Of a stretch of 41,814 nt of DNA, positions 6,091-27,810 are shown in pieces. Under the pieces are notes generated by a model. That model saw nothing but the letters and a program-made list of their open reading frames with translations, did no database searches and was not told the DNA's origin. Source of the DNA: Candidatus Auribacterota bacterium (GTDB taxonomy: Bacteria; Auribacterota; JAFGBW01); assembly GCA_016932965.1 (NCBI GenBank), contig JAFGBW010000257.1, forward strand, positions 1 to 41,814, read 5' to 3'. The position numbers and the translations under genes were made by a program. Within the stretch, counting starts at the first letter, position 1. Every line of letters begins with the position of its first letter.

Positions 6091-7156
6091 TTAAAGAGCA
6101 AATCGTTCATAATGAATCTGCTTTTTAGGGACGCCCATCTGACTCAAGGCAACACGAAGCCCTTTCATCATAGAAGGCGGACCGAACAGGTACACATCGT
6201 ATTGATGAACATCCGGGACAAGCCGGAGGATCTTCTCTTTATTGATCAAGCCTTTTTCTCCAAGCCATGCAGACTCATCACTCATGATGTAAATCACTCG
6301 AAAACGACTGACTAAACGGGCCGCCAATTCATTGAGCTCTTCCTGGAGAGCGATACCGGCGCTGTTCAGATTACCATAGATAAGAACCACCTCTTTGCCG
6401 ACAGAAAGGAACTCCTCAGCAAGGGAACGGAACGGAGTGATGCCGATTCCTCCTGCGATCAGGATGACTTTCGGACAAAAACCCCGCCGTGAAGTAAAAA
6501 TACCATGCGGCCCGTCAATCAAGACCGGGGTATCCGGTTTCAACTTGACGATTGATCCGGTGAAATCGCCCCGTTGTTTGATGGTGAGACGGATCTGTAT
6601 TCCGTCAGGTCTGCATGAGATGGAAAACAGATGGGCATGCCATCGGAAACCATGGGCCAGAAACCGCACAACCATGAATTATCCCGCTTCAACGGGGAAC
6701 AGATTCAAATCCTTTCCGCCGATATAGACCGAGGTCGTTTCGACGGTTTCCATCTCCATTTTTTTCACAAAGAACCAGTGACGAAAAAATAGCCGGACAG
6801 GAAGGACAAATCGGTAATATAACAAATTTCCAAAAAAAAGATAAGTCCCCGCCAGGGCTATAGCCAGATAAAAAGTCAGATGAACGGCATACCAGAACTC
6901 ATGGAGCATCTTATTCCTGATGATCAGGACAGAAAAAAACAACGGCCATCATCATGATTGACAAGCTGATGACAGCAGAAAGCACGTCATCTGAGTTTTT
7001 GCAGAAATCCACGAATTGTTCATTCAGACTTGAACCGGCCTGCATGGCATGACCGTGTGTCAATAAAATGGGATGCACGACCAGAAAAGGGCCCAGCATA
7101 AATCCAACGGCATGATGAAGCAAACTCAGACGATTTAGACCAAAAATCTTTTCCAC
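6091..7156 (-). pseudogene. Ferric-reductase-like transmembrane/FAD-NAD(P)H oxidoreductase, fragmented
   Basis: Three consecutive minus-strand ORFs (6911-7156, 6679-6942, 6091-6675) read as one protein when an extra T in a T7 run (about 6932-6938) and an in-frame TAA at 6676-6678 (FPVEAG*FMVVRF) are ignored. Confidence 0.8.
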
Positions 7157-7258
7157 CCACTTGATCCTGCCGATCAGAATCTACTTTCCCCAATTAAAAA
7201 AAGATTGGAACACTTTTCAGTAACAAGGTATGATTACAGAGAAGGATTGAATGCGAAA

Positions 7259-7804
7259 ATGATCATCACTCTTTCAGGAGAACCCGGCTCAGGCAAAAGC
7301 ACTTGCGCGAAAAGTCTGGCTTCCATCTTCGGCCTGAAGCATTATTCCACCGGCGATCTGATGAGACAGATAGCCAGCGAAAGAAACATGACTCTGGAAC
7401 AGCTTTCCCAGCTCGCGGAAATGGATGCTTCACTTGATAAAGAACTGGATGAACGGCAAATCCGTTTAGGTAAAACCGAAGATCAATTCATCATTGACGG
7501 AAGACTGGCTGCTCATTTTATTCCTCATGCAATCAAAGTATTTCTGACAGCGGACCTGGAGGAAAGGGCCAGAAGAATTCTTCATGCCAACAGGACCATG
7601 GAATCTTTCAGTTCCCTGGAAAAAGCCAAGGAAAAACTCGTCCACCGGCAGGAGAGTGAAATCAAAAGATACCTGGCATGGTACGACTTCAATCCTTTCG
7701 AGCTTTCCACATACGACATCGTGTTCGATTCTTCTCACACCTCCATCGATGAAATGGTGGAAAAAGTCAGGAAAAAAATCATGGGCAAACTCTGCCTCAC
7801 TTGA
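7259..7804 (+). CDS. cmk: Cytidylate kinase-like P-loop (d)NMP kinase, archaeal-type
   Basis: MIITLSGEPGSGKSTCAKSLASIFGLKHYSTGDLMRQIASERNMTLEQLSQLAEMD..., D..ld.rq....IIDGRLAAHF pattern of the short archaeal-type CMK. Start moved from 7205 to the ATG at 7259. Confidence 0.75.
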   Translation: MIITLSGEPGSGKSTCAKSLASIFGLKHYSTGDLMRQIASERNMTLEQLSQLAEMDASLDKELDERQIRLGKTEDQFIIDGRLAAHFIPHAIKVFLTADLEERARRILHANRTMESFSSLEKAKEKLVHRQESEIKRYLAWYDFNPFELSTYDIVFDSSHTSIDEMVEKVRKKIMGKLCLT

Positions 7805-8678
7805 TTTTTTCCGTATTCTTAAAATGAAGTTTGGCCACTTTACCGAAATTTTCCCTGCCGTATTTCTCGATAAAGCTTTTTGCCTTGCTGTGAGTAGGCT
7901 CTCCCGCTCCTTTGGGAAAATCAATCTGATATTCGTCTGAAAGCGCTTGAAGCTCTGTCAGAAAAACAGACCTTGCCATGACACTGGCACAGGCCACCGC
8001 CATGTCGGATTCGCCGTGAGTTTTGGTTTCCAAAGGAATCGTGACCCCCATTTTTTTAAGTTGAAGTTTTATTTTCCAGGGGGATCCGAATTGGTCCAAA
8101 AGCGCTCTGGGGGCTTTGCACGTCAGCCATAGGTTTTTCAGGCAAGCCGCATGGGCCCAGGACAATAAGGAATTCAAATTCCCAAACGAAGCATACAGCT
8201 GATTGTATTTTTCCGGTCCGATGAGTACCGTCTTCACAGGGGCATGCTGCCGGATAATCCCGGAAACCCGTATCACGGTTTTGTCATCCATTTTTTTACT
8301 GTCCCGTATGCCCAGTTTTTTAAAACGCAGGTAATTTTCAGTATCCACAAAGACCGAAGCCACAACCAGCGGGCCGAAATAATCACCCTTGCCCGCTTCA
8401 TCCATCCCGATTTTTTCTTCATAGGATAAATGCCCATAATCTAAATCAAATGTTTTAAGTATTTCCGGCTCCAGATAATACCGGACAAAATCCTCGGTCC
8501 CTTTGCCCTGGACGAGGCATTTATTCGAATGAAACACATTCACATTCACATGCAGCTGCTTATGAACAGCCGAAAAATAACCGTATGGAAGATCCTTGAA
8601 AAGGAACCCCCTTTCGGAGAGATCCTTTTTGATCCTCCCCGCATCGTTTTTTTTAATTTCACAGGTAAAGGAATTCAT
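7797..8678 (-). CDS. rnhC: Ribonuclease HIII
   Basis: IGMDEAGKGDYFGPLVVASVFVD active-site motif; HGESDMAVACASVMAR; PKGAGEPTHSKAKSFIEKYG. Confidence 0.92.
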   Translation of the reverse strand: MNSFTCEIKKNDAGRIKKDLSERGFLFKDLPYGYFSAVHKQLHVNVNVFHSNKCLVQGKGTEDFVRYYLEPEILKTFDLDYGHLSYEEKIGMDEAGKGDYFGPLVVASVFVDTENYLRFKKLGIRDSKKMDDKTVIRVSGIIRQHAPVKTVLIGPEKYNQLYASFGNLNSLLSWAHAACLKNLWLTCKAPRALLDQFGSPWKIKLQLKKMGVTIPLETKTHGESDMAVACASVMARSVFLTELQALSDEYQIDFPKGAGEPTHSKAKSFIEKYGRENFGKVAKLHFKNTEKIK

Positions 8679-9084
8679 GTTCGATTTTCCTCAATACATC
8701 ATAAAATGTTTTCCATTCCTCTTCAGAAGCAGCGGAAGAGACTGCCCGGTTCAGTTCCTTGACCAGATGATCCGCCTTTTTCTGCATTTCGATTCCATCC
8801 GTTGTCAAACAAAGGAGAACAGCCCTTTTATCCCCGGGATGCATGATTTTTTTTATCCATCCTTTTTTCTGAATCCGCTGGACAAGGCCGGTCAAGGAAG
8901 AAGAATCCAGGCCGAGTTCTCCCTGAATTTCCTTGGGAGAGCACTTTTGCCTGTCCGCAACAACATTTAACACATCAATTTGAGCTGGAGAAATTCTCAT
9001 GATAGCCAGCGCTTTGTTGAAAAAGCGGTCCAGTCTTCTGTTCATAACAAGCCATCTGGAGATAAAATCATTTCGTTGCATCAT
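8659..9084 (-). CDS. MarR family transcriptional regulator
   Basis: LAIMRISPAQIDVLNVVADRQKCSPKEIQGELGLDSSSLTGLVQRIQKKGWIKKIMHPGDKRAVLLCLTTDG: MarR winged helix. ORF extends to 9171; ATG at 9084 preferred. Confidence 0.88.
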   Translation of the reverse strand: MMQRNDFISRWLVMNRRLDRFFNKALAIMRISPAQIDVLNVVADRQKCSPKEIQGELGLDSSSLTGLVQRIQKKGWIKKIMHPGDKRAVLLCLTTDGIEMQKKADHLVKELNRAVSSAASEEEWKTFYDVLRKIEHEFLYL

Positions 9085-9227
9085 GACTAAATATTTTTCA
9101 GGTGATCCCTGCTGAACACAAATAAAATAAAAATGATTGTAAATATGACCTGTTTTACTAATAAAAGTCAAACAAGATCAGCTTTCCAAAGCCCATTTTC
9201 GCGTATCTCCCTCGATAAAGTCAACCA

Positions 9228-9246
9228 CCACCGGCAGAGCCGGTGG
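9228..9246. repeat. 8-bp perfect stem, 3-nt loop hairpin (REP-like)
   Basis: CCACCGGC-AGA-GCCGGTGG. Confidence 0.7.
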
Positions 9247-9322
9247 CTTGAAATGTGAACCGATCAAAGCGATTAATTTTAATGAAATATACTGTATAAA
9301 ATATTTACATTTTTATTTTTTG

Positions 9323-9450
9323 CCACACGGAGAGCAAGAAAAGTTATAGGTGTTGAATTTTAAATTCAAATGAAATTTGATCAATTCAATTCATAACTAA
9401 ACACTCGAAACTCACAATTATAATTTCTCCGCGCTCTCCGTTTCCGTGGT
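9323..9450. repeat. Imperfect inverted repeat of degenerate CACGGAG-type words around an AT-rich core
   Basis: Left arm CCACACGGAGAGCAAGAAAAG; right arm reverse complement ACCACGGAAACGGAGAGCGCGGAGAA. Confidence 0.6.
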
Positions 9451-9826
9451 GATATTATTTCTCTTAACATTTCTGGAATTGTCAAACTTTACTAGTCCAA
9501 ATCCTGTGGCGGTGGTTTACCGGGTTAATTAATTTCCCATACTCCCGTCATTGTCAAATTTGACCAGAACACCAACAGAGACGGGTGATCCAGCGGATAA
9601 ATGAACATCCTGAATATACCCATTAGATTCATTGTTCTTTTTTTACGGATCTTACGGGCTCAAGGGAAGTTTTATCAAGAAAATATCTGGATAAACAAGA
9701 GTATGAATTGGTATGTTGTTCTTATAATCCCTTTTGATGACCGCGATGATTGAATATCGCTGACCATTAGCCATGGGGCAAAAATAGTGTCTTGAATATC
9801 CTCAATACAAAAAGGTCGTATGTGTC

Positions 9827-10213
9827 TTGATAAACAACCAGAAAAAAATACTGATCATCGAAGATGATGCCCTTTTTTCTCAAACTCTCAGGATCTTTTT
9901 TGAAAAAGAAGGAATGGAGGTTTCTGAATCTTCAACAGTCAAAGAATCCTTGGAAAAATGCAGGGAAATGAAGCCGGATTTCGTGATAGTGGACATCTGT
10001 CTTCCTGAGGAATTGGGCATCTCATTTTCTAAATCCGTTGGAGAAAAACCTGACTTATACGGCTCCCCCAAAATCATCGGGATATCCGGTCTAACCGGAG
10101 CTTTCCTTAAAGAGGGGGAGGAAAAATTAAAAAAATTCAATCTGCATTTCTTTTTAAAAAAACCATTTGAATTGAATGAATTAAAAAATCTCATAAATGA
10201 ATCTGTCTCTTGA
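9827..10213 (+). CDS. Single-domain response regulator (CheY-like receiver)
   Basis: KILIIEDDALFSQTLRIFFEKEGMEV.., DFVIVDICLP, IIGISG, FFLKKPFELNEL. Confidence 0.85.
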   Translation: MINNQKKILIIEDDALFSQTLRIFFEKEGMEVSESSTVKESLEKCREMKPDFVIVDICLPEELGISFSKSVGEKPDLYGSPKIIGISGLTGAFLKEGEEKLKKFNLHFFLKKPFELNELKNLINESVS

Positions 10214-10320
10214 TGAAAATAAAAAAAGTGGATTTCAAGCATGGGCATTGCCCTCAATTCAATCTCGCTTTTTTTATCAACAGTAAGACACTTTGAACTC
10301 ATACCATGAAGGAACAAGCC

Positions 10321-11067
10321 ATGGGATCAAAAAAAATCATCCGGACTGACGGCAGAAAACCAGACCAGATCAGACCGCTTGCTTTTGTTAATTCCCTTCA
10401 GACAAAAGCAACGGGTTCTGTGATCATGAAGATGGGCCAGACGGTCGTCAATTGTTCTGCCACCGTTGAAAAGACCGTCCCTTCTTTTTTAGACCCTGAA
10501 AAACAGGGATGGCTGACCTGCGAATATTCCATGCTGCCTGCTTCCGGAACCACACGGGTTCCACGAGAAGCCAGCAGAGGCAAACAATCCGGCCGAACCA
10601 TGGAAATTCAACGTCTGATAGGCCGCGCGCTCCGGGTTACGATTGATTTAAAAAAAATACCGGGAAAAACCATCTGGCTTGACTGTGATGTGATCCAGGC
10701 AGACGGCGGAACAAGAACCGCTTCCATCACAGGAGCATGCGTTGCCTTGAGGCTTGCTGTAAAAAAACTGCTCCAAACCAAAGAATTGACCAAGGATCCT
10801 TTGCTGGACAATGTGGCTGCCATCAGTCTGGGAATATTCAGGGGAACGCCGTTACTCGACATCAATTATGAAGAAGACAGTCAGGCAGACGTGGACATGA
10901 ATCTGGTGATGACTGAAAAAGGTCGTTTTGTGGAATTGCAAATGTCTTCAGAAGGCAATACGTTTACGCGAAAAGAAATGGATCGCCTTCTTGCCCTTGG
11001 CCATAAAGGGCTTCACCAGCTGTTTCTGGCCCAGAATAAATATCTGAATTCAATCATAAACGGGTAA
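10321..11067 (+). CDS. rph: Ribonuclease PH
   Basis: RTDGRKPDQIRPL, GWLTCEYSMLPASGTTRVPREASRGKQSGRTMEIQRLIGRALR, LDCDVIQADGGTRTASITGA, DSQADVDMNLVMT. Confidence 0.95.
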   Translation: MGSKKIIRTDGRKPDQIRPLAFVNSLQTKATGSVIMKMGQTVVNCSATVEKTVPSFLDPEKQGWLTCEYSMLPASGTTRVPREASRGKQSGRTMEIQRLIGRALRVTIDLKKIPGKTIWLDCDVIQADGGTRTASITGACVALRLAVKKLLQTKELTKDPLLDNVAAISLGIFRGTPLLDINYEEDSQADVDMNLVMTEKGRFVELQMSSEGNTFTRKEMDRLLALGHKGLHQLFLAQNKYLNSIING

Positions 11068-12237: not shown

Positions 12238-14640
12238 TCATTTTCCTGAACCGGAAGGAATCGATTTATTATCTGTCCCGGATTTAGAATCAGGTTTCCT
12301 GCTTTGATTGAGCATCGCGATGAGAGATTCCGGTAATTGAGATTCGCCGGTTATTTCGCTTTTATTCTTTTCCGCCCATGCATTGGATTGTTCGCGGATG
12401 ATTTTCATCTGGGGAGTGTCTTGCAGGGCCTCGTTTTCTTCCGACGTAAGGGAAATGATCGGCGTGCCGAGAGAATTGAACAAAATCACCTGGCCTTTTC
12501 TCAAAGATTCCTGGCCGGTCTGGGGATTGGAAAGCGAATAAACCGGATCCTGTCCGAAAAGCTCACTTTTAAACTGTTCATATTCCGGATTATTCGGCTC
12601 GATTTTACAGGCCTTAAGGGCGAACAAACGGGCCAATTCCTTTTGTTCCAGCTCTCTCACACATCTGGCTTTCAGGAAAAAAAACCGGGCATCATCATCG
12701 ATGGTCATGATATGTTTACGAAGCACCTGATCCGCCTCGGCATATTTTTTTGACTGAATCAGCGATTCTGCCTCTTTTAGAATCTTTTCCACGTCCAGCT
12801 CCAGCTTTGTTTTTACAGAAAGAAGACGGGAATTTGAAGGTTCCAGTTCCAAGGCCCTGTTGATGGATTCCAGCCCCTCTTTTTTCTGTTTAAGATGATA
12901 ATAACAGACGGCTTTGGCATGATGAAGCCCGGCTATGTCCTGACGAAGAGTCAGCAGGGTGTCGATCTCGGCAAGAGCCTCGTTGTACTTTTGATCGTCC
13001 ATCATTTTTTGGACCTGGTTCATCCGGCTTGAAATAACGGACATCTTGTAATACTTGGACCCGGGTTGGCTGTCCCCTTCCAGTTTTTCCTTGATGATTT
13101 GAATGTTACGATTATCCGGGGCCAGCTCAGAAGCTTTCTGAATGGCCTGAAGACCTCTGTCAACCTGATTTTGATATAAATGACAGATGGCCTTTGCATG
13201 ATAAAGGCTAGCGATATCCTGCCGGTAAGAAAGACCTTCTTCGATTTTTTTCATGGCCTCTTCATACCGGTCATGATTGATCAAATCCTGAACATCCCTG
13301 AGGATTTTCTGGATTTCCGCCTGCTTATAATTTTTGCTTCCCGGTTCATTTTCCAACTCCATTTTGCATCTTAAAATCCGGATGGAATCATCCTTGGGAT
13401 CCAGTTTTTCCGCCTCCCGGATCGAAAGAAGCGCTTCATCCCTTCTTCCAAGATTATAAAGACAGACCGCTCTGGCATAATGCAGATGAGAAAGATCGGG
13501 GCGTTCTTTTAAAAGAGATTCCGTGCGGTTCAACGCGGCCTGGTTTTGATTGGAACGGATCAAATTCTGGATTTTTTTAAGACCTTCCTCGATTTCAGTT
13601 TGTTTATAAAACCGGGATTGGGGATCATTTTCCAATTTAGCCACACACCTTCGGCAAATTTTTTTTCCGTCTATCTCAAAATACCGGTTGTCCTGAAACG
13701 CCAAACCGCAGAATTCACATTTGTTGCCCTTCACATTCTGCACCTTGCCCGGACCCAGCCAGAACAATCCGCCGCCGCCTGTTTTGGAACGGTACCCGAG
13801 TTCTCCGGAAATGATCTGGTTGGTTTTTTGATCCTTGACCACAGGTTCCCACTTCGAATGTTCTTTCTTGCATTCCAGGCGGTAACGCCCGCCCGGATCG
13901 GCAACAAATTCAACCAGTAAGAAATTTTCAGAAGTCTGGTAGGTTCTGTAACCGGTGGATTGATAATAATTGCACTCAATCACATGACGTCCGGGGAACA
14001 GCAAAACATGGCGTATCTCCGCCGGACCAGTTAGAGCCAGATTCGAAGATATTGGGCTTCCTGGAATAGTAACCTTCTCCATTTTATTGGTTTTAGGATT
14101 GAAGATCTCTATAGTCTGCTTTTCCGGTTCAGGTGTTTTACGTTCTTCTTTTTTCACCACAATCCGGTGATGTCTTTTAAAATAACTGTTCTTCTCGCCC
14201 GGAAACGGATAACCGTCAATTTTATGGATGCTCATCCCACGCAGATGGGAATAATCCAGAACAGCGCTCTGGCCGACCAGTTTCTCATATTCCTTTCTGG
14301 CCTCTTCCTTCTTTTTCTCCTGTTCCAGCTTTTCAGTTTCCTCGAATTCTTTTTTCCCCCGGGCAGAAAGCTTTTTAAGCGCTGCTTTTCTTTTTTTGAT
14401 ATACTCCTTATGAAGGAGGGCATCCTCCTTTTTCTCCTTTTTGAGCATCTCACGGGTCAGATAATGGTCTTGCCTGGAAGCCTCCTTTAAAAGCTGCTCC
14501 CAGGAATGGGAAACAGCAGCGGCTGCCGGTACGAGTAAAAAAAGGACCCCGATAAGAACCCCCGGAAAAATCCGGACTGCTAATACAGGAAAAAAACCGG
14601 AAAAAAACCGACCTGATAAAAAAAAACAACGCAACTTCAT
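12238..14640 (-). CDS. Exported TPR-repeat protein with coiled-coil segment and LIM-like Cys cluster
   Basis: Hydrophobic N-terminus; Lys/Glu-rich coiled coil; CEFCGLAFQDNRYFEIDGKKICRRC; three related modules of about 100 aa containing TPR motifs. Confidence 0.75.
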   Translation of the reverse strand: MKLRCFFLSGRFFSGFFPVLAVRIFPGVLIGVLFLLVPAAAAVSHSWEQLLKEASRQDHYLTREMLKKEKKEDALLHKEYIKKRKAALKKLSARGKKEFEETEKLEQEKKKEEARKEYEKLVGQSAVLDYSHLRGMSIHKIDGYPFPGEKNSYFKRHHRIVVKKEERKTPEPEKQTIEIFNPKTNKMEKVTIPGSPISSNLALTGPAEIRHVLLFPGRHVIECNYYQSTGYRTYQTSENFLLVEFVADPGGRYRLECKKEHSKWEPVVKDQKTNQIISGELGYRSKTGGGGLFWLGPGKVQNVKGNKCEFCGLAFQDNRYFEIDGKKICRRCVAKLENDPQSRFYKQTEIEEGLKKIQNLIRSNQNQAALNRTESLLKERPDLSHLHYARAVCLYNLGRRDEALLSIREAEKLDPKDDSIRILRCKMELENEPGSKNYKQAEIQKILRDVQDLINHDRYEEAMKKIEEGLSYRQDIASLYHAKAICHLYQNQVDRGLQAIQKASELAPDNRNIQIIKEKLEGDSQPGSKYYKMSVISSRMNQVQKMMDDQKYNEALAEIDTLLTLRQDIAGLHHAKAVCYYHLKQKKEGLESINRALELEPSNSRLLSVKTKLELDVEKILKEAESLIQSKKYAEADQVLRKHIMTIDDDARFFFLKARCVRELEQKELARLFALKACKIEPNNPEYEQFKSELFGQDPVYSLSNPQTGQESLRKGQVILFNSLGTPIISLTSEENEALQDTPQMKIIREQSNAWAEKNKSEITGESQLPESLIAMLNQSRKPDSKSGTDNKSIPSGSGK

Positions 14641-23678: not shown

Positions 23679-23978
23679 ATGACCATCAACGGTATCGCAA
23701 ATGTTTCAGGTTTATCCGGACCGGAAAAGATCAAAAAAAGCGGTCTGAAAAAAATTGAATCTTTTTCAAAAGAAAAAGATCAAGCAGACAAAGTGACCAT
23801 TTCTGAAAAGGCCAGGCTGGCCCATGGAGAAGCGGTTTACATCAACACCCTGAAAACGATACCGGATGTGAGACCTGAAGCTGTCAAAAAAGCCAAAGAT
23901 GACATGGAAAACGGGAAACTCTATACTCCTGAAATCATTGAAAAGACAGCTGAAGCCATACTAGAACGCCTTTTTTAA
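23679..23978 (+). CDS. flgM: Anti-sigma-28 factor FlgM
   Basis: 99 aa; DKVTISEKARLA....LKTIPDVRPEAVKKAKDDMENGKLYTPEIIEKTAEAILERLF. Confidence 0.85.
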   Translation: MTINGIANVSGLSGPEKIKKSGLKKIESFSKEKDQADKVTISEKARLAHGEAVYINTLKTIPDVRPEAVKKAKDDMENGKLYTPEIIEKTAEAILERLF

Positions 23979-24243: not shown

Positions 24244-26637
24244 TCATGCCAAAGATGTTTCCGGGACCTGTTCGAGAGTGAGATTATTTTTATTCATGAT
24301 GCCCAGCACTTCTTCTCTCATTCTGGCAGAATCTTTAGAATAAAGGGGGTTAAGCTCAAGAGATTTTTCAAAATTGTAGAAGGCTTTCGAAAAGTCCATT
24401 TGGGCCTGTTTTATCTTCCCTTCCCTCAGCAGCAATTTTCCCCGTTCCAGATAGCATTGTCCTTTACTCGAATAAAAATAACTGTGACGTACCGTAAAAA
24501 GATCATCCAGTAAAAAAGAGGCCTGTTCATAATAAAAAATGGCATTATCAAAGGCTTCCTTGGCAGAGGCAGTTCCTTGAGGTTTCTCTTTATACACAAG
24601 AGCCTTATCTAAATTCAGAATTCCCAACCCTTCCATGATATAAAAGTAATTTTTATTCCGGAAACCCTTTTCAAACATCTCCAACCCTTCTTCACAGTAT
24701 TGAAGCGCCTTTTCCTTCTCATCGGAGCTCAAATAATATTGCACCAAACCTTTTAAAATCGAATTCAGGAATTTACCGGCCACAATGTATTCTGGATAAT
24801 TTTCATAAATCTGTTTGATCAATTTCAGTCCCTTCTGAGCCACTGCTTCAATATGCTTTGTTTCTTTTTGTTTGATTTGATGTTCCAAAATCAGAGAATA
24901 ACTCATGGCCTTGAAAATGAGCCGCAGGACATCCCATTTTTTAGAGGAAGGGGATTCAAAATCATAAATCTTTGCCATCTCCTCAGGTTTGCTTCGATAG
25001 TAAATCAAAAAATCCCTATAGGAATCTTTTATTTTTGTCAAAAAAGGGACATCCTCTTTATTCTCTTTATCATTAATGAGCATGGTCAATGTATTCATCT
25101 GATGCGGGTGGGCACAAACAAGCGTTTGGATAATTCTTTTTTTCTCGGCTTGTTTATTCATCTGCGTATAGATCCCGAGGGAAATGGACAGGGCAATATG
25201 GGAAAGCGGATGTTTTTCCAGGTATTGTTCACAGAGATGCATGGCTTGATCCTTCTGATTGACGAAAAGATAAGCCCAGGTAAGCTGTTGAAAATTATCT
25301 TCAATAGGCTCTTTTTCATATTTCTTTTCATATAATTCAACCTTTTGCTGGGGAGTCATCGCCCCGTTGGTTTTGATATTGACCCATTCATTCACCACGA
25401 AAAAATGATTGAATGCCCACTCTTTTCCCCCAAAGGTCGCTTTTGAAAGGGAGTATTGGGCATCATAAAGAACTAAAATGCCATCCTCGTTGAGAATGCC
25501 CAGCCAATAATCCTTTCTTTTCTGGACTGCTCCATCTTCAAGATAAATAAGAACGTTCAATATGGATATCAAGTCATACGGCGGAGCATAATCTTTTTCA
25601 AGATCCGATGGGAGATTTTCCAGGATATCCTGATGGATGAACCGGATACGGGACTTGAAAAAATCGGGGTCAATAGGCTCCCAAACCTTTAAGGATTCAT
25701 TGATATGAAAATATTTCTTCAATTTTTCTTTTGCCTTTAAAGTGAGACGGTTGAAAGAATCAAAAGAATACTTCATGTTTTCAGCATATTTAAGACTGGA
25801 ATCATTGATATCAGAAGCGAGGATCCGGAAATCCTTTATTCCTGATTCTACCAAATCCACGGCGTAACTCATCACTTCTTCTCCGGTGGAACAAGCATAC
25901 ACTTTTATCTTCAACGGACGCTCTTGTCTCTCCGCCAGCCCCTGCAAGGGAGCAAGGTGATCCCTGAAGGCTTTGATGTTCCCCCAGTCACGGAAAAAAT
26001 ACGTCGTGCTCAGCATGTAAAACTTGTTGACCAGCATGTTGATCCATTCCGGTTTCTTTTTGATTTCATTCAGGGACCTGAATCCGTTTGATTTCAGGTA
26101 TTGAAACAGAGCCGAATCGATCCTCTGCATGTTGGGATTTTCTCCCACGACTCTATGCAATGTTGTGTGCGCCGTATCTTTGATGATTTTTTCCACTTCC
26201 TTGTAGATACCCTCTTTCTGGTACTCAACGGTTAAAGTGGAATAAATAAGAAAAGAAGTATAAATCTGAGGGGATATCCGGTTGAGCTCTTCTTTATGGG
26301 CCTTGAAATATTTCCGGATAAATTCAATATCATCTTCTTCAGTAATGAAATAATAAAAATCAAAAATCTGCCCGGAAACCTCGGTAAAATGCACCACCTG
26401 CTTGTCATCGATGCTCAGAATATGATCATCAAAAAAAGTGGGATCATAATAGGTGTTTTCGGAAATCAGATAAGACAGATAGTAATTGACGTCAGTCGGC
26501 TTGACGCTCAGCTTAGTTTCATCACCATGGAAAACCGGCTTGGCAGCAAGACTGACCGAGAACAACCCGGTAGAAACAAGAAAAAAAATGATTTTTATTA
26601 GTTTAAATCCCATGAGGGTCCCTCGCCATTTTACCAT
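24244..26637 (-). CDS. CheR-type SAM methyltransferase fused to TPR-like region, with predicted N-terminal signal peptide
   Basis: TTYFFRDWGNIKAFRDHL, LKIKVYACSTGEEVMSYAVDLVESGIKDFRILASDINDSSLKYAENMKYSFDSF, IRFIHQDILENLP, YDLISILNVLIYLEDG; C-terminal helical repeats; N-terminus MGFKLIKIIFFLVSTGLFSVSLAAKP. Confidence 0.82.
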   Translation of the reverse strand: MVKWRGTLMGFKLIKIIFFLVSTGLFSVSLAAKPVFHGDETKLSVKPTDVNYYLSYLISENTYYDPTFFDDHILSIDDKQVVHFTEVSGQIFDFYYFITEEDDIEFIRKYFKAHKEELNRISPQIYTSFLIYSTLTVEYQKEGIYKEVEKIIKDTAHTTLHRVVGENPNMQRIDSALFQYLKSNGFRSLNEIKKKPEWINMLVNKFYMLSTTYFFRDWGNIKAFRDHLAPLQGLAERQERPLKIKVYACSTGEEVMSYAVDLVESGIKDFRILASDINDSSLKYAENMKYSFDSFNRLTLKAKEKLKKYFHINESLKVWEPIDPDFFKSRIRFIHQDILENLPSDLEKDYAPPYDLISILNVLIYLEDGAVQKRKDYWLGILNEDGILVLYDAQYSLSKATFGGKEWAFNHFFVVNEWVNIKTNGAMTPQQKVELYEKKYEKEPIEDNFQQLTWAYLFVNQKDQAMHLCEQYLEKHPLSHIALSISLGIYTQMNKQAEKKRIIQTLVCAHPHQMNTLTMLINDKENKEDVPFLTKIKDSYRDFLIYYRSKPEEMAKIYDFESPSSKKWDVLRLIFKAMSYSLILEHQIKQKETKHIEAVAQKGLKLIKQIYENYPEYIVAGKFLNSILKGLVQYYLSSDEKEKALQYCEEGLEMFEKGFRNKNYFYIMEGLGILNLDKALVYKEKPQGTASAKEAFDNAIFYYEQASFLLDDLFTVRHSYFYSSKGQCYLERGKLLLREGKIKQAQMDFSKAFYNFEKSLELNPLYSKDSARMREEVLGIMNKNNLTLEQVPETSLA

Positions 26638-27602
26638 GCCATATCTTTCAGCAGATGATTCTGAACATAATCCTCTACGCTTTTTTCACTGGAAGTGAAA
26701 GAAACCGGACAGATCTTTTTCAGTTTCTCCATCGCAGCGCATGTGTAATACTGATATTTTTTCTTTAACATAGCCGGCATCTCAATATAAATGATATTGG
26801 GAGGAACACCCATGGCTTTAAAAACACATTGAGTCATCCTGTTCCAAGTTTCAGGTGTTCCTCTTCCTAAGTTGTAAAGTCCTTTATACTGTGGATGATC
26901 CAGAAACCATAATATTATATTTACCACATCTTTCACATAAATAAAATCTCTTTGTTGTTCTCCATCCCTGAAATCAGGATGGTCGGAACGAAACAATCTC
27001 ATGGATCCGGTTTTTTGAATCTGATGGAACGCATTGTATACAATGGAGGTCATTCCGGTTTTATGCCCCTCATTGGGGCCAAAGACATTAAAAAACTTAA
27101 AACCCGTGATTTGTTTCAGCCATCCATGCCTGTGCGCCCATAAATCAAAAAGATATTTGGAAAAACCATAGGCATTCTGAGGGCTGAGTGCATCCAATTT
27201 ATTTTCATCATCCTCAAATCCGTCTTTACCGTTCCCATAGGTTGCGGCTGAACTTGCATAATAAAAAGGAATCTGATGCCGGATGCAAAAAAGGGCCAGT
27301 TCCCTGGTATACAATGTGTTGTTTTCAATCAGATAGGAAAGATTGTTTTCCGTGGTGGTTGAACAGGCCCCCATGTGAAAAACCGCCTGAATGTCCCCCA
27401 AAGACTGGAACTGCCCGCTTCCGATTTTCTCCAGAAAAACAGTTTTATCCGTATAATCTAAAAATGATTTGCCAACCAGGTTTTTCCATTTGTCGGATTC
27501 ATCCAAAGAATCGACTACCAGAATATCTTTTATCCCCCTGGCATTTAGGCCGGCAATCAAACAAGACCCTATGAATCCAGCGCCTCCAGTGATGACAATC
27601 AT
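26631..27602 (-). CDS. hldD: ADP-L-glycero-D-manno-heptose 6-epimerase
   Basis: MIVITGGAGFIGSCLIAGLNARGIKDILVVD, FHMGACSTTTENN, PFYYASSAATYGNG, GFKFFNVFGPNEGHKTGMTSIVYNAF, DFIYVKDVVNIILWFL. Confidence 0.93.
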   Translation of the reverse strand: MIVITGGAGFIGSCLIAGLNARGIKDILVVDSLDESDKWKNLVGKSFLDYTDKTVFLEKIGSGQFQSLGDIQAVFHMGACSTTTENNLSYLIENNTLYTRELALFCIRHQIPFYYASSAATYGNGKDGFEDDENKLDALSPQNAYGFSKYLFDLWAHRHGWLKQITGFKFFNVFGPNEGHKTGMTSIVYNAFHQIQKTGSMRLFRSDHPDFRDGEQQRDFIYVKDVVNIILWFLDHPQYKGLYNLGRGTPETWNRMTQCVFKAMGVPPNIIYIEMPAMLKKKYQYYTCAAMEKLKKICPVSFTSSEKSVEDYVQNHLLKDMAW

Positions 27603-27810
27603 GAAACACAACCTTTACTGGGGATTTACCGTATCTGCTTAACTATATACTAGACTTGATGTTAAGAATCCAGAATAAAATAATCAACCCTGATTGGAAT
27701 AGAAAATAATCTTAACAAACTGCAAAATTGGAGGATGAATCAAGATACCTTCCATTGAAAATAAAGGGGTTTCCGACTCTCCGGGCCAACCATCCTCTCT
27801 CGAACTATCC

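Follow-up and report, generated by a model that had tools for sequence, protein, structure and literature searches.

The minus-strand open reading frame at 24244..26637 of the window (the whole 41,814-nucleotide stretch of DNA analyzed here) encodes a CheR-type catalytic domain and a long TPR-like helical region behind an N-terminus of the export type. With a probability of roughly 40%, we read this protein as a member of an exported, probably catalytic CheR-derived family that is located in or outside the cell envelope and is paired with an exported serine hydrolase. At the level of sequences and models, the reading is carried by the export-type N-terminus, the CheR fold with its intact residues, the grouping of the proteins in one clade, and a linkage to hydrolase and permease genes. 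CheR methylates MCPs with cytosolic S-adenosylmethionine (SAM), and SAM-dependent methylation is taken as intracellular chemistry. An exported family that keeps the pocket and catalytic residues thus makes an extracytoplasmic pool of SAM or a SAM-like cofactor a directly testable question. Such a family would moreover represent a relative of CheR that operates outside chemosensory control and is partnered by an exported hydrolase.

The frame comprises 797 codons from the first ATG, all of them open. The likely start is the second ATG at 26613 (26611..26613, minus strand), which is preceded at a distance of 6 bases by a GAGGG ribosome-binding site; the product from this start is 789 aa long, with the N-terminus MGFKLIKIIFFLVSTGLFSVSLAAKP. 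Pfam matched CheR (PF01739) at residues 203 to 382 (25468..26007, minus strand) with an E value of 7.5e-18 and a score of 65.1 bits, above the curated cut-off of 27, and PF01739 was matched by 9/9 family members. This SAM-binding domain, which is also supported by Foldseek and alignments, carries the motifs TTYFFR, ACSTGEE, DIN, and NVLIYL. CheR_N (PF03705) had no Pfam match in any of the nine members; in the AlphaFold2 model of the window protein (mean pLDDT, 86.7), helices precede the CheR domain, and the alignment to 1af7 covers 310 columns. The N-terminal region, residues 25 to 188 (26050..26541, minus strand), was modeled as a small beta unit (residues 35 to 88) plus helices, and the CheR domain is followed by an all-helical, TPR-like repeat region of about 350 residues (421 to 775; 24289..25353, minus strand), recognized from the model, Foldseek, and weak Pfam TPR matches. 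The top Foldseek matches of the model were the CheR crystal structures 1af7 (Salmonella CheR), 5ftw (Bacillus subtilis CheR with SAH), and 5xlx (CheR1 with SAH), with TPR superhelices next. Both the Pfam match and the predicted structure thus bear out a preliminary description of the gene, made from the letters alone, as a CheR-like domain fused to a long TPR-like region, and the Foldseek comparison it had proposed points the same way. No CheW domain was found in the window protein by Pfam.

Residues 1 to 24 (MGFKLIKIIFFLVSTGLFSVSLAA; 26542..26613, minus strand) form a putative Sec-type signal peptide or signal anchor, a type of N-terminus shared by 10/10 members. We judged export-type N-termini by hydropathy and charge rather than by formal signal-peptide or cleavage prediction. 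All 10 readable N-termini of the family have one hydrophobic core each, with a 12-residue Kyte-Doolittle maximum of 1.9 to 3.2, and a positively charged flank preceding the core; in 19 ordinary CheRs, the same maximum was at most 1.82 (mean, 0.93). Since every readable homologue has such a segment, compared with these ordinary CheRs, the hydrophobic N-terminus is not a chance feature. The paralogues on contigs C75 and C270 have an unusually long stretch ahead of the core. A start codon downstream of the hydrophobic segment, the case that the preliminary description had named against itself, is unlikely and was rejected because the next in-frame ATG of the window gene is not reached until codon 162, which already lies in conserved sequence. 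We also rejected a second membrane segment that would return the CheR domain to the cytosol, as hydropathy revealed no clear one in 10 members and a single borderline window in C221 (1.59 at residue 98). Together with the positive flanks, this leaves the inverted topology once considered for the protein unsupported, while the exported N-terminus suggested for it extends to the family. The predicted export signal of the CheR-TPR family is well supported by this comparison; the data fit a signal peptide or signal anchor with the remainder of the protein outside the cytoplasm, and the proteins are presumably exported.

The residues expected of a working CheR are retained. T204, R208, A240 to E246, D268, N353, and Y357 are invariant in 9/9 full family sequences, and in 94 other CheRs, R208, E246, D268, and N353 occur in 94/94 and Y357 occurs in 93/94. 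The invariant set includes the SAM-pocket residues and the catalytic Arg, which we take to be T94, E129, D154, N230, and R98 in Salmonella numbering as matched to our alignments, as well as the catalytic Tyr, so the pocket check suggested earlier came out positive. Column identity in the nine full sequences averages 94% at pocket positions versus 61% elsewhere in the domain, a contrast that is partly circular because the choice of positions was guided in part by prior knowledge and takes in motif I. Overall, the catalytic domain is the best-conserved part of the protein (63% column identity versus 38% in the repeat region). Other hallmarks have changed: N212, which is Asn in 91/94 other CheRs, is Asp in 10/10 family members; the CRNV Arg, present in 93/94 other CheRs, occurs in 0/10; and the GHSE motif, whose Glu is found in 92/94 other CheRs, is lost. 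These replacements suggest that the substrate of the exported family differs from that of CheR, and they leave room for a different ligand, such that the ligand or chemistry of the domain may have changed.

A useful comparison is CheWS (CheW-CheRlike), a spirochaete SAM sensor in which a CheR domain has likewise diverged while retaining the Glu and Asp that bind SAM. In the Treponema protein, joint mutation of this Glu and Asp abolishes SAM binding (PMC10653840), while the Arg and Tyr called essential for CheR methylation have both been lost (R79W and Y218F) (PMC7666581). CheWS is, however, cytosolic and bound to the chemotaxis array (PMC10653840, PMC7666581). With residues equated by motif position in the alignment, the exported family looks more enzyme-like than CheWS because its Arg and Tyr are kept.

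The window genome has seven CheR matches: one canonical CheR-TPR, which contig C239 carries within a che operon (neighbors read by eye from the sequence as CheA, CheB, CheW, and CheY), and six others, which are long open frames. Because two pairs of the six sit at contig ends (C221 with C246, and C270 together with C135, which carries a C-terminal fragment), we count about five exported CheR genes. The ends of C221 and C246 share a 190-base overlap that contains some mismatches, so either two close paralogues or a single gene that varies between strains may be present. Scanning GTDB species identified five full-length named homologues in Auribacterota, Elusimicrobiota, and Omnitrophota, namely, Elusimicrobia PL23a_bin.39 (L038), Omnitrophota fen_1318 (L039), Elusimicrobia fen_1173 (L040), Endomicrobiales Zod_Metabat.1366 (L041), and Auribacterota RS_1_24 (L042; contig C50 of genome G001), the last from the same order as the window genome. 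The search for further proteins with a signal peptide, CheR, and TPR, which had been recommended, thus returned about five paralogues and five full-length homologues in three phyla. Exported CheRs are nonetheless rare, with 3/295 Elusimicrobiota, 1/334 Omnitrophota, and 1/58 relatives carrying one besides the window genome.

A tree built from 56 CheR domains placed the exported proteins, along with their duplicate loci, in one clade on a long branch (SH-aLRT, 100), separate from every cytosolic CheR sampled; the "3 changes" in the tree table are an artefact of duplicate loci labeled cytosolic. A single origin of this rare, predicted exported family is thereby well supported. The window protein clusters with the Elusimicrobiota and Omnitrophota members (support, 99) and not with its own paralogues, and the family therefore has at least two lineages, which arose by old duplication or transfer. 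Bin contamination was rejected, as the tetranucleotide profiles of the window and the paralogue contigs agree (r, 0.97 to 0.98). A phage origin was also rejected: there was no phage match, and the plasmid matches are ordinary CheRs whose coverage of the query does not exceed about 35% among the matches listed. One paralogue's contig (L121) additionally encodes a probably exported 1,417-aa protein (6568-10818, minus strand) that has no Pfam match.

An alpha/beta-hydrolase gene lies near the exported CheR gene at all four homologue loci from other phyla. It is about 20 bases downstream of the CheR-TPR gene in L038, a divergent neighbor in L041, and 1.6 kb away in L039, and in L040 (2558-5656) the exported CheR-TPR and the hydrolase are naturally fused into one 1,033-aa protein. 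Each of the separate hydrolases has an export-type N-terminal segment, and the one in L041 is likely a lipoprotein, judging from its sequence. S189, D243, and H270 are invariant in the hydrolase alignment and fit a catalytic triad; the hydrolase model (pLDDT, 75.5) resembles monoacylglycerol lipase, feruloyl esterases, and acetyl-xylan esterases. CheB and CheB-CheR fusions offer a parallel solely for this pairing or fusion of a methyltransferase with a serine hydrolase, as the hydrolase here is an exported esterase/lipase-type alpha/beta-hydrolase and not a CheB homologue.

A profile built from the four other-phylum hydrolases recovered orthologues in the window genome (C135, 1.7e-75) and in G001 (3.0e-73). 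The former is encoded on a contig other than the window's, roughly 10 kb away from the paralogue fragment, and the latter lies away from the exported CheR gene; the two genes are close only in the other phyla, not in the window genome or G001. Among 59 relatives, the profile was strong only in the window genome, G001, and the same-order genome G002, with the next matches near 1e-30. Among 290 Elusimicrobiota, the three genomes with exported CheRs scored far above the rest. As these three had contributed to the profile, we repeated the test with a profile lacking the Elusimicrobiota members, and their hydrolases scored 196 to 231 bits, whereas none of the generic hydrolases tested exceeded 113. 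In G002, a MAG that is 77% complete, the hydrolase stands beside a LAT-type permease (L170, contig C143), and an exported CheR-TPR was not detected.

LAT-type amino-acid permeases adjoin the CheR gene or the hydrolase in L039, L040, L041, G001, and G002, and three of them, from three phyla, are 54 to 58% identical to one another's reference. Neither the hydrolase nor the LAT-type permease is present in the window itself. We rejected the LAT-type permease as a SAM transporter, as it bears no sign of SAM specificity. An EamA/DMT-type permease (1521-2396 of L042) lies directly upstream of the RS_1_24 homologue in the same orientation. The EamA/DMT superfamily includes some of the SAM transporters found in intracellular bacteria, but this permease was rejected as a SAM source because it is a single case. 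No neighbors shared among the paralogues of the window genome were seen. Furthermore, no che cluster was seen next to the window gene or in the surroundings read for the paralogues and homologues, consistent with the earlier observation that the gene lacks a chemotaxis context, the canonical CheR-TPR being elsewhere, on C239.

CheR-TPR fusions and a CheR domain serving as an intracellular SAM sensor (CheWS) are already known. The exported family shares with CheR (PF01739; 1af7, 5ftw, 5xlx) the catalytic-domain fold, the SAM-pocket residues, and the catalytic Arg and Tyr, but it differs in its export signal, its undetected CheR_N, the missing che cluster, and the altered CRNV, GHSE, and N212 positions. 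Like FrzF and WspC, its members have a CheR domain followed by TPR repeats (PMC3447774). According to a survey of such fusions, whose text does not mention signal peptides, most are encoded in chemosensory clusters, and they act on receptors inside the cell (PMC3447774); the exported family, in contrast, forms a separate CheR clade and has longer, divergent repeats. The open-licence papers searched contained no account of an exported CheR family or of periplasmic SAM use.

On our preferred reading, a Sec-type signal would export the CheR-derived protein to the envelope or beyond. Its catalytic domain probably still binds SAM or a close relative and appears built like an active carboxyl methyltransferase with altered substrate-facing features, and the TPR-like superhelix would probably present a substrate or partner. 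The exported hydrolase, whether adjacent, fused, or elsewhere in the genome, would be the functional partner and could remove a methyl ester or process the same substrate, while the LAT-type permease linked to it may carry an amino-acid-like compound across the inner membrane. We infer SAM binding, methyl transfer outside the cytoplasm, and a methylase/esterase pairing with the hydrolase. An extracytoplasmic methylation module consisting of a CheR-type writer, a serine esterase eraser, and a transporter for SAM/SAH or the substrate would be a speculative arrangement, and we regard it as unlikely. The firmest elements of the preferred reading are the export signal and the intact active site, and the methyl donor is its weak point: SAM is not known to be available in the periplasm or otherwise outside the cytoplasm, and no SAM exporter or transporter was identified for the family. 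For this reason, we keep binding or sensing as the main rival and delivery to another cell as the second. In the former, the exported CheR domain would bind SAM, SAH, or a nucleoside- or amino-acid-like compound without methyl transfer, the compound being either sensed or handed to the hydrolase and permease for uptake. The lack of a known SAM supply for catalysis would be accounted for, scavenging would fit the neighboring hydrolase and amino-acid-type permease, and Treponema CheWS offers a known example of a CheR-like domain that senses SAM (PMC10653840). However, the Arg and Tyr that CheWS has lost (PMC7666581) are invariant here, and no signaling partner is linked; the ligand sensor proposed in the preliminary description is therefore a possible but less favored role, and we hold it to be somewhat improbable.

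Delivery would solve the SAM problem differently, through a secreted enzyme that is active inside a prey, host, or symbiont cell whose cytosol supplies SAM. The family is sporadic and has multiplied in the window genome, and there are reported symbionts or predators among the relatives in these phyla; yet no delivery system is linked, a permease is found in the neighborhood, and the lipoprotein-like L041 hydrolase points to the producer's own envelope, making delivery quite unlikely. The loss of several CheR hallmarks and the size of the repeat region, the largest part of the protein, would agree with a pseudo-enzyme whose CheR domain is kept as a fold while the TPR-like region works as an envelope scaffold. 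As it is the catalytic domain, with its pocket and catalytic residues, that is best conserved, we consider this very unlikely. Finally, the protein could be an ordinary cytoplasmic chemosensory CheR-TPR whose start has been mispredicted or whose hydrophobic segment goes unused, since known fusions of this type act in chemosensory pathways (PMC3447774). This is extremely improbable given the export-type N-termini of 10/10 members across three phyla, the lack of a suitable start farther downstream in the window gene, the absence of che genes nearby in a genome whose canonical CheR-TPR sits in a che operon, and the separate clade. Compared with these alternatives, the exported and probably catalytic family remains our preferred reading.

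Within the window, a gene for an NAD-dependent epimerase (26631..27611, minus strand; HldD-like by sequence) ends 17 bases upstream of the likely CheR start. The two genes are probably cotranscribed, and the epimerase gene shows no sign of being part of the CheR system. A small open reading frame on the opposite strand (23679-23978, plus strand), about 265 bases beyond the downstream end of the CheR gene, looks by eye like the anti-sigma factor FlgM; a flagellar link through it was rejected, as it has no Pfam match. Farther away, the window encodes an 800-aa TPR protein with an N-terminal hydrophobic segment (12241-14640, minus strand), adjoined by an Asp/Glu racemase-like gene, and this is probably another exported TPR protein of the window genome.
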